DNA of 64,000 nt, taken from NCBI GenBank assembly GCA_021299875.1, contig JAJTEW010000001.1, positions 248,001 to 312,000 on the forward strand, in the 5' to 3' direction. Position numbers and translations under genes: made by a program. This DNA is from Comamonadaceae bacterium. Its GTDB lineage: Bacteria; Pseudomonadota; Gammaproteobacteria; Burkholderiales; Burkholderiaceae_C. The notes beneath the pieces are model-generated. The model did not search any database, was not told the DNA's origin, and was given only the letters and a program-made list of their open reading frames with translations. Below, piece after piece: positions 2,828 through 4,146 of this stretch; the stretch's first letter is position 1, and every line of letters begins with the position of its first letter.

Positions 2828-3949
2828 TCAGCGGGCGCGTCGCGCCTTGACCGCGTCCGACAGCACCTGCAACACGCCTTCGCTGTCGTCCCAACCGATG
2901 CAGGCGTCGGTGATGCTCTGGCCGTAGGTCAGCTTTGCCAAGTCGTGCTGTCCTGGCGTGAACTTCTGGGCACCGTCTTTCAGGTGGCTTTCGACCATGA
3001 CGCCGAACACCTGGCGCGAGCCACCGCCGATTTGCGCAGCGATGTCCTTGGCCACATCGATCTGGCGCTCATGTTTTTTGCTGCTGTTGGCGTGGCTGCA
3101 GTCGACCATCAGGGTGGCGGGCAACTTGGCGGCTTCAAGCTCCTTGCAAGCCGCAGCCACGCTTTCAGCGTCGTAGTTGGGGGCTTTGCCGCCGCGCAAA
3201 ATCACGTGGCAGTCTTGGTTGCCCTGAGTCTGCACGATGGCGACCTGGCCATTTTTGTGCACCGACAAAAAGTGGTGGCCACGGGCAGCAGCTTGGATCG
3301 CATCGGTCGCGATTTTGATGTTGCCGTCGGTGCCATTCTTGAAGCCGATGGGCGCCGACAGGCCTGAAGCCAGTTCGCGGTGCACCTGGCTTTCAGTGGT
3401 TCGCGCGCCGATAGCACCCCAGCTGATCAGGTCGCCGATGTACTGGGGCGAGATCACGTCGAGGAACTCGCTGCCAGCGGGCAGACCCTGGCGGTTGATC
3501 TCGATCAGCAGCTGGCGTGCGATGCGCAGGCCTTCGTCGATGCGGTAGCTCTCGTCCAAGTAGGGGTCGTTGATCAGGCCCTTCCAGCCCACGGTGGTGC
3601 GGGGCTTTTCAAAGTACACGCGCATCACGATCTCCAGTGTGCCGGCGTACTTGTCTCGCAGGGGTTTGAGGCGACGGGCGTAATCGAGAGCCGCTGCAGG
3701 GTCGTGGATCGAGCAGGGACCAATGATGACCAGCAGACGGTCGTCTTGACCGTGCACGATTTTTTGAATGGCTTTGCGGGTATTGGCGATCAAAGTTTCC
3801 GTGGCCGTGCCAGCAATCGGAAAAAAGCGGATCAAATGTTCTGGCGGGGGGAGCACGGTGATGTCCTTGATGCGTTCGTCGTCGGTCTGGCCTTTGCGGT
3901 CGGCTGCATTCGGATACCAGCTTTCGGGGGCTGCGGTTTTGGCGTTCAT
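2828..3949 (-). CDS. aroG: 3-deoxy-7-phosphoheptulonate (DAHP) synthase, class I
   Basis: Catalyses the first step of the shikimate pathway, condensing phosphoenolpyruvate with erythrose 4-phosphate. The 373-residue protein matches the AroF/G/H family in length. GPCSIHD (metal-ligand Cys79), FEKPRTT (residues 113-119) and the C-terminal DCSHANSSK motif are visible. The ATG at 3949 follows a good AGGAG site; the reading frame stays open upstream but only across the regulatory leader. Expression is probably controlled by attenuation through an aromatic-rich leader peptide and terminator at 3979-4109, directly upstream. Which aromatic amino acid feedback-inhibits the enzyme cannot be read with certainty. 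It lies downstream of tldD on the same strand but with its own leader. Confidence 0.95.
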   Translation of the reverse strand: MNAKTAAPESWYPNAADRKGQTDDERIKDITVLPPPEHLIRFFPIAGTATETLIANTRKAIQKIVHGQDDRLLVIIGPCSIHDPAAALDYARRLKPLRDKYAGTLEIVMRVYFEKPRTTVGWKGLINDPYLDESYRIDEGLRIARQLLIEINRQGLPAGSEFLDVISPQYIGDLISWGAIGARTTESQVHRELASGLSAPIGFKNGTDGNIKIATDAIQAAARGHHFLSVHKNGQVAIVQTQGNQDCHVILRGGKAPNYDAESVAAACKELEAAKLPATLMVDCSHANSSKKHERQIDVAKDIAAQIGGGSRQVFGVMVESHLKDGAQKFTPGQHDLAKLTYGQSITDACIGWDDSEGVLQVLSDAVKARRAR

Positions 3950-3978: not shown

Positions 3979-4011
3979 AAAAAAAACCGCCGGGCTTTGG
4001 GGCTCCGGCGG
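3979..4011 (-). terminator. Attenuator terminator in the DAHP synthase leader
   Basis: On the minus strand CCGCCGG (4005-4011) and CCGGCGG (3987-3993) form a 7-bp GC-only stem with an 11-base loop. Eight T follow immediately (3979-3986). It lies between the leader peptide and the AGGAG site of the DAHP synthase gene, inside the transcript that must be read to express it. This is the position of an attenuator rather than an end-of-gene terminator. Confidence 0.85.
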
Positions 4012-4062
4012 TGTGTGTCGAGATGTTCGGGTGCTTATGCGCTCGCCTCTCGTCCGCCGGGG
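4003..4062 (-). promoter_or_regulatory. Antiterminator pairing (regions 2:3 of the attenuator)
   Basis: CCCCGGCGG at 4054-4062 (minus-strand reading, inside leader codons 16-19) is complementary over seven bases to CCGCCGGAG at 4003-4011, the 5' arm of the terminator. The two pairings are mutually exclusive. This gives the classic choice: a ribosome stalled at the upstream aromatic codons leaves the antiterminator free to form, while a ribosome reaching the stop codon lets the terminator form. Inferred from complementarity by eye; no folding energy was computed. Confidence 0.65.
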
Positions 4063-4109
4063 ACTGAGAACCAAAAGTAAAAAAAGTAAAAAGCGATGCG
4101 CAAAGACAT
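4035..4109 (-). CDS. Aromatic-rich attenuation leader peptide upstream of DAHP synthase
   Basis: A 24-codon reading frame, starting ATG at 4109 and ending TAA at 4035. Residues 7-14 are FYFFYFWF: five Phe, two Tyr and one Trp in eight consecutive codons. The composition, the small size, and the position 24 bases before a GC-rich stem with a T8 run all match leader peptides that sense charged tRNA in attenuated biosynthetic operons (trpL, pheL type). Phe codons dominate, so tRNA-Phe is the likeliest signal, with Tyr and Trp contributing. No good Shine-Dalgarno precedes the ATG; see the promoter entry for a possible leaderless start. Confidence 0.8.
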   Translation of the reverse strand: MSLRIAFYFFYFWFSVPGGREASA

Positions 4110-4117
4110 GGTCTCAA

Positions 4118-4146
4118 TGTATCACAGCTGAATGACGGTGCATCAA
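4118..4146 (-). promoter_or_regulatory. Candidate promoter of the DAHP synthase leader
   Basis: On the minus strand TTGATG (4141-4146) and GATACA (4118-4123) are separated by 17 bases, and TG one base before the -10 gives an extended -10 element. Matches are moderate. Transcription would begin around 4110-4112, one to three bases before the leader ATG, so the leader peptide would be translated from a nearly leaderless end. Read-through from tldD is the alternative. Confidence 0.35.

Follow-up and report, generated by a model that had tools for sequence, protein, structure and literature searches.

The classic attenuators of E. coli form mutually exclusive hairpins, and the pheL, pheST and trp leaders of this organism have a 5' UTR with a Shine-Dalgarno sequence. 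Attenuators of the proteobacteria were reportedly the subject of a comparative study by Vitreschak and others in 2004. The E. coli pheL, pheST and trp leaders are named as attenuators in a source that also places the DAHP synthase genes of E. coli under TyrR and TrpR (PMC11802643). In C. glutamicum, aroR attenuates the aroF (DAHP synthase) operon, which is boosted by ribosome stalling under Phe limitation (PMC11802643, PMC4046766); the aroR leader is noted for its Phe-Tyr-Phe, and Tyr availability is described as without effect (PMC11802643). Four of eight small mRNAs in one of these studies were leaderless (PMC4046766). The trpL/rnTrpL RNA of S. meliloti, an attenuator of trpE(G), begins at the ATG of its leader ORF and is thus leaderless as well (PMC7298713). 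A further candidate, the uORFC-13-1 motif before aroF, is represented by 24 sequences from Acholeplasma and environmental DNA (PMC8632094).

Here we analysed a 64,000-nucleotide stretch of a Comamonadaceae genome (assembly GCA_021299875.1, contig JAJTEW010000001.1, positions 248,001 to 312,000; hereafter the window), whose context is Limnohabitans-like, the nearest named Limnohabitans DAHP synthases being 93–97% identical. An element of about 150 bases upstream of the DAHP synthase gene (Table 1) is, judging from its sequence and from comparison with related loci, very probably a ribosome-mediated transcription attenuator of the single DAHP synthase gene of this genome, with a transcript predicted to start at or near the leader AUG.

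Table 1. Features of the element and of its neighboring genes, in window coordinates
Feature	Position	Strand	Remarks
tldD	5677-4199	minus	upstream gene
Extended -10 promoter box, TGATACATT	4116..4124	minus	TGnTAnnnT; spacer GAGACC (6 nt) to leader ATG
Leader peptide ORF, MSLRIAFYFFYFWFSVPGGREASA	4035..4109	minus	without Shine-Dalgarno core; direct reading and family comparison
Codons 7-14, all aromatic (F Y F F Y F W F)	4068..4091	minus	sole such run in the window
Region 1, UUCUC-A-GUCC, codons 14-17, 5' arm of the putative protector hairpin 1:2	4061..4070	minus	folds, co-variation
Region 2, CCGGCGGACGAGAG, able to pair with region 1 or region 3	4047..4060	minus	motif GGCGGnnGAGAG kept; co-variation
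Region 3, UCUCG...CCGCCGG, of which CCGCCGG doubles as terminator 5' arm	4005..4023	minus	antiterminator 2:3 energy, co-variation
Intrinsic terminator 3:4 with T8	3979..4012	minus	-18.6 kcal/mol; family conservation
DAHP synthase, AroFGH type, predicted regulated gene	2828..3949	minus	TIGR00034

Direct reading of the minus strand places the ATG of the leader at 4109 and its TAA stop at 4037-4035, giving 24 codons with a run of eight consecutive aromatics (five Phe, two Tyr and one Trp), exactly as the original prediction had described them. Among 3701 ORFs of 8–60 codons in the window, counted from every ATG, GTG or TTG start on both strands, only the leader frame, which was found from two nested starts, has at least eight aromatics in ten residues, and 20 first-order Markov random versions of the window contained no frame of this density. 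The stem of G and C only, followed by eight T, was also found where it had been predicted, on the minus strand between the upstream gene and the ribosome-binding site of the DAHP synthase gene: its arms are CCGCCGG (4011-4005) and CCGGCGG (3993-3987), with a closing pair A4012-T3986 and the T8 at 3986-3979. The DAHP synthase gene starts with an ATG at 3949, has its own ribosome-binding site, GAGGAG, at 3961-3956, and encodes a product that matches TIGR00034 (aroFGH) with 545 bits and an E value of 5.1e-164. A second CCGGCGG, at 4060-4054 in leader codons 17–19, had been proposed to pair with the terminator 5' arm, and it is indeed its full complement over 7 bp. Because this part of region 2 is a repeat of the terminator 3' arm, both copies are possible partners for region 3, which supplies the 5' arm.

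If this arrangement is functional, the leader frame and terminator were expected to recur upstream of orthologous DAHP synthase genes, and they do. We gathered 110 upstream regions from the family (80 named records and 30 other family genomes), of which 104 were distinct; a short ORF with four to nine aromatics in its best ten residues was present at 103 of these 104 loci, and GGCGG (one further G allowed) followed by at least four T at all 103 loci other than L065. At that one locus (L065, locus 1-178) there is no leader upstream of the DAHP synthase gene, and the stretch in its place seems similar to the 3' terminus of a group II intron. A covariance model (R1) built from 89 family loci matched 194 of 200 sampled family genomes, among them 176 of the 179 complete and clean ones; 137 of 141 genera are represented, and all of these are counts of model matches only. 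The six family genomes missed by R1 are 55–90% complete, and two of them (G055 and G161) are also without a DAHP synthase match. In many genomes of the family, DAHP synthase is matched twice and the leader once, and the second copy usually seems to be without this leader.

Beyond the family, 125 of 399 genomes sampled from the order matched R1 at E 0.01 or better, many of the weak matches covering only the terminator end of the model. Of 79 order matches that were looked at, 76 were full-length and one (L149) belongs to the family itself; the order loci span 14 families, this one included. Since these loci were found by a model of the element itself, their motif content is partly present by construction. 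All but one (78 of 79, the exception being L216) lie upstream of a DAHP synthase gene, with a best stretch 58–83% identical. Our script found no leader frame at L150 and L216, and at least four aromatics per ten residues occurred in 75 of the 77 order leaders with a frame. Two loci of one family (L214 and L220, f44) have lost the aromatic run (1 in 10) but kept the ORF, the terminator and a -10-like stretch, possibly through decay or a change of signal. Of 77 order rows, 74 had a terminator hairpin of at most -11.9 kcal/mol, and in the other three (L174, L195, L211) the script had chosen the wrong hairpin. A sample of 274 genomes of the class yielded six matches, three of them in the same family, two in another order and one partial. 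Both other-order matches are full-length and stand upstream of a DAHP synthase gene (63% and 61% identical), one with a GTG start in the same place, and the partial match has no DAHP synthase beside it.

Examination of the sequence before the leader revealed a promoter box at a nearly constant distance from the start codon. In the family, the extended -10 pattern TGnTAnnnT ends 5–9 nt short of the leader's start codon in 102 of 104 sequences. The same pattern and distance occur at 4 of the 2372 ATGs of the window, one of which is that of the leader itself. The family count was obtained after reassigning four start codons, before which it was 96 of 104 at 6–8 nt. The two exceptions are L082, which has TACATT without the TG, and L057, with its box 10 nt from the start. 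One leader (L020) has a GTG start in place of ATG at the same position. A Shine-Dalgarno core (GGAG, GAGG, AGGA or AAGG) was found between -18 and -4 of the leader start in 0 of the 104 family sequences. Sigma-70 RNA polymerase starts about 7 nt downstream of the -10 box, and this spacing would place the first base of the transcript on or close to the leader AUG. For the window, transcription is predicted to start on or close to position 4109 (the A of this start codon), and the leader mRNA is probably leaderless.

In other families, TGnTAnnnT occurs at 5–9 nt in f4 (7/9), f23 (7/8), f44 (6/8) and f40 (1/1), and in none of the leaders of f8, f20, f32, f3, f10, f11, f13, f30 and f12, some of which have the shorter TAnnnT (f10 6/9, f13 5/7, f30 1/2, f12 1/1). 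Neither a -10 box at 5–9 nt nor a Shine-Dalgarno core was present in f8 (0/8), f20 (0/7), f32 (0/6) and f3 (0/4). Shine-Dalgarno cores do precede the leader in f4 (4/9) and f11 (2/6), which either argues against leaderless starts in these two families or reflects chance. Within the genome of the window, TACATT-N5-9-ATG occurs at 26 places (10 forward, 16 reverse), compared to 17 for the reversed pattern, and only the one at the DAHP synthase gene opens an aromatic leader. TACATT boxes also stand 7–8 nt before two long ORFs, one of 406 aa that looks Dfp/CoaBC-like by eye (L112, G000:C4:293137-293153) and one of 304 aa (L130, G000:C13:403553-403568), which suggests that this genome may have further leaderless genes.

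To quantify the competing structures, we compared the energies of terminator and antiterminator, as the original prediction had recommended. Both fold better than shuffled sequences, at -18.6 kcal/mol (z -5.0) for the terminator hairpin 3:4 and -22.1 kcal/mol (z -3.93) for the antiterminator 2:3, and the whole leader region has a folding z of -3.15. The putative protector hairpin 1:2 taken alone in the window has an energy no better than shuffles (z -0.66); in the fold of the whole leader it is extended by codons 3–6 pairing with codons 22–24. RNAalifold returned no consensus pairs for 40 sequences of the 1:2 hairpin, which we think is due to shifts of the stem register between families. When arms were swapped between 12 families, in permutations that treat families as exchangeable and ignore their relatedness, own arms paired better than foreign ones for 1:2 (p 0.00065) as well as for 2:3 (p 0.0012), each time in 9 of 12 families, compared to p 0.60 and 6 of 12 families for the control pairing 1:3. 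The remaining three of the 12 families had own arms no better than foreign for 1:2 and 2:3 alike, and a 2:3 swap with slightly different segments gave 0 of 20000 permutations. Pairings 1:2 and 2:3 thus co-vary between families, in agreement with the mutually exclusive structures of classic attenuation that had been predicted.

Position 6 of the arm and the base before GGCGG formed G..C in 104 rows, A..T in 33, G..T in 8, A..C in 8 and other combinations in 25 (n = 178; the motif rule that places region 2 went wrong in L186 and perhaps in further rows). In rows with CCGCCAG as the arm in place of CCGCCGG, a matching change in the terminator 3' arm is usual (exceptions L202, L213 and L226), and region 2 is often altered along with the arm. 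On a DAHP synthase tree of 91 rows with both traits, for which the family of the window was thinned to every third row, the change at arm position 6 provided only four independent pairs when supported branches were counted, on average 3.7 of them in the same direction and none against (p 0.125 in a sign test). Inside the family the GGCGG/CCGCC core is nearly invariant, and therefore holds little co-variation information. One row (L021) has GACGA in region 2 and CCGTCGG as terminator 5' arm, so that one G-C of the antiterminator is replaced by A-U; its antiterminator also has one mismatch elsewhere, and its terminator keeps a G-U.

From these features we propose a mechanism, of which four elements are predictions: where transcription starts, that the ribosome stalls, which state is the default, and how the switch responds to each of the amino acids. 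RNA polymerase would start at, or a base or two from, the leader AUG, and a ribosome would load on the leaderless 5' end. With Phe-, Tyr- or Trp-tRNA in short supply, the ribosome would halt on the last aromatic codons (Y11 F12 W13 F14) and cover region 1, while region 2 (CCGGCGGACGAGAG) would stay exposed and could pair with region 3; this pairing would block the terminator, and the DAHP synthase gene would be transcribed. With all three tRNAs charged, a ribosome at the stop codon would cover region 2, hairpin 3:4 would form, and transcription would end after about 131 nt. If the leader were not translated, hairpin 1:2 would form and termination would follow by default.

A block model, with a 27-nt ribosome whose footprint we assumed to be -15 to +12 and with everything 5' of the ribosome barred from pairing, is consistent with these steps. 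In the window leader the probability of 2:3 pairing was 0.03 for the ribosome-free RNA and 1.00 for any A-site position from Phe7 to Phe14, and it fell to 0.02 at Ser15 and 0 at the stop; the model also yields 1.00 at codons 3–6, because upstream sequence is barred from pairing. Averaged over 178 leaders, the probability was 0.97 at -15, 0.86 at -12, 0.09 at -9 and 0 at the stop. The ribosome-free average of 0.34 over the 178, compared to 0.03 in the window, makes default termination less clear outside the window leader. The boundary in the model follows from the assumed footprint, and its informative part is that the aromatic run ends exactly there; the last aromatic codon before region 2 ends 8–12 nt upstream of GGCGG in 149 of the 178 leaders.

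Which of the three amino acids the leader responds to is a separate matter. In the window leader Phe, Tyr and Trp codons all lie in the predicted critical zone, and a response to each is plausible. The suggestion that all three end products are sensed at once agrees with the codon content of this leader, from which it is read, and appears to be only partly general, Trp being absent from 59 of the 178 leaders. Every one of the 178 contains Phe, compared to 168 with Tyr, 119 with Trp and 115 with all three, and the residues total 820 Phe, 309 Tyr and 126 Trp. It is conceivable, at somewhat less than even chances, that Phe alone is the main signal and that the Tyr and Trp codons are largely passengers, as these counts and the precedent of C. 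glutamicum aroR, for which Tyr is reported to be without effect (PMC11802643), would suggest; this would be a refinement within attenuation, and the odds of the two overlap. What argues against it is the retention of YFWF, inside the antitermination zone of the block model, in 83 of 104 family sequences. Changes at these codons are mostly silent (TAC/TAT, TTT/TTC): in these 83 leaders Tyr is TAC in 59 and TAT in 24, the first Phe TTT in 77 and TTC in 6, Trp TGG in all 83, and the last Phe TTC in 79 and TTT in 4.

The fixed distance between promoter box and start codon could give attenuation a second input. In this rather unlikely elaboration, the switch would respond both to charged Phe, Tyr and Trp tRNA and to the capacity for leaderless initiation, and hence to initiation-factor and stress state, and the 131-nt RNA may act in trans. 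If so, a failure of leaderless initiation would let 1:2 form and turn DAHP synthase off, and the terminated 131-nt RNA would be a tiny leaderless mRNA that may act like rnTrpL.

Far less probable is an arrest of the ribosome by the leader peptide itself, which would sense free ligand as TnaC does instead of a shortage of charged tRNA. Although much of the peptide looks conserved in the family (FWFS..GGRE), the GGRE reflects a constraint on the RNA. The region 2 motif GGCGGnnGAGAG persists in another reading frame in L008, L010, L011 and L069, the last three of which read APAVER or APAVES in place of GGRE, and it contains the stop codon in L092 and L109. A motif kept across frames and over a stop indicates that region 2 is conserved as RNA and not as peptide, and across families the order of the aromatics varies and the remaining peptide differs. 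Arrest at the level of the peptide was rejected as the main reading since region 2 is kept in other frames. We likewise rejected, as the least probable of all, a terminator that merely ends the tldD transcript beside a chance T-rich ORF: intergenic terminators are ordinary and T-rich DNA encodes Phe, but the random windows held no such frame, the aromatics are kept through mostly silent changes, the promoter box holds its distance from the leader start, and region 2 co-varies with regions 1 and 3.

In the genome of the window (99.94% complete) we found one DAHP synthase of the AroFGH type, and family searches that were positive in control genomes found no match in it for type II DAHP synthase, TrpR or a TyrR-type HTH. 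Attenuation would thus control all of the DAHP synthase that these searches detected. A plasmid search gave no match. The view that this is a solution different from that of E. coli is supported by the single gene and by the lack of TrpR and TyrR-type matches in the genome; an aromatic attenuator of DAHP synthase does have a precedent in C. glutamicum aroR. If the proposed mechanism is correct, the first step of the shikimate pathway would be controlled at the level of RNA in a wide range of bacteria, in a group whose regulation, judged from the searches in the window's genome, does not resemble that of E. coli. The 178 compared leaders provide a natural set for finding which stalled codon matters, and the element would be a target for raising aromatic production in Burkholderiales.

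No Rfam family reached its gathering score anywhere in the window; at E values up to 10 there were three matches between 3700 and 4400, each well short of the threshold of its family (CC0196, the best of them, at 16 of 35 bits). In a search of literature titles and abstract openings that excluded most subscription journals, no DAHP synthase attenuator of Burkholderiales was found. The features that define an attenuator and can be judged from sequence, namely leader, terminator and antiterminator, appear to be present, with L065, L214 and L220 as exceptions. Attenuators of this kind are already known, and what seems distinctive here is the wide spread in Burkholderiales together with the lock between promoter and start codon.

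The element combines three traits, a leader of mixed Phe, Tyr and Trp codons, a -10 box that is conserved, and translation that is probably leaderless, and each described system matches it in part. The pheL, pheST and trp leaders of E. coli share with it the codons of their end products. The aroR leader of C. glutamicum, which belongs to another phylum than Comamonadaceae, is similar in that an aromatic leader peptide precedes DAHP synthase. The rnTrpL of S. meliloti shares the leaderless leader ORF, and differs in having a Trp leader and trpE(G) as target; its RNA and peptide also act in trans. The uORFC-13-1 motif of Acholeplasma resembles the present element in its predicted uORF with one or more Phe codons beside a terminator before a DAHP synthase gene, and differs in that its uORF has a ribosome-binding site and a minimum of one Phe codon (PMC8632094).
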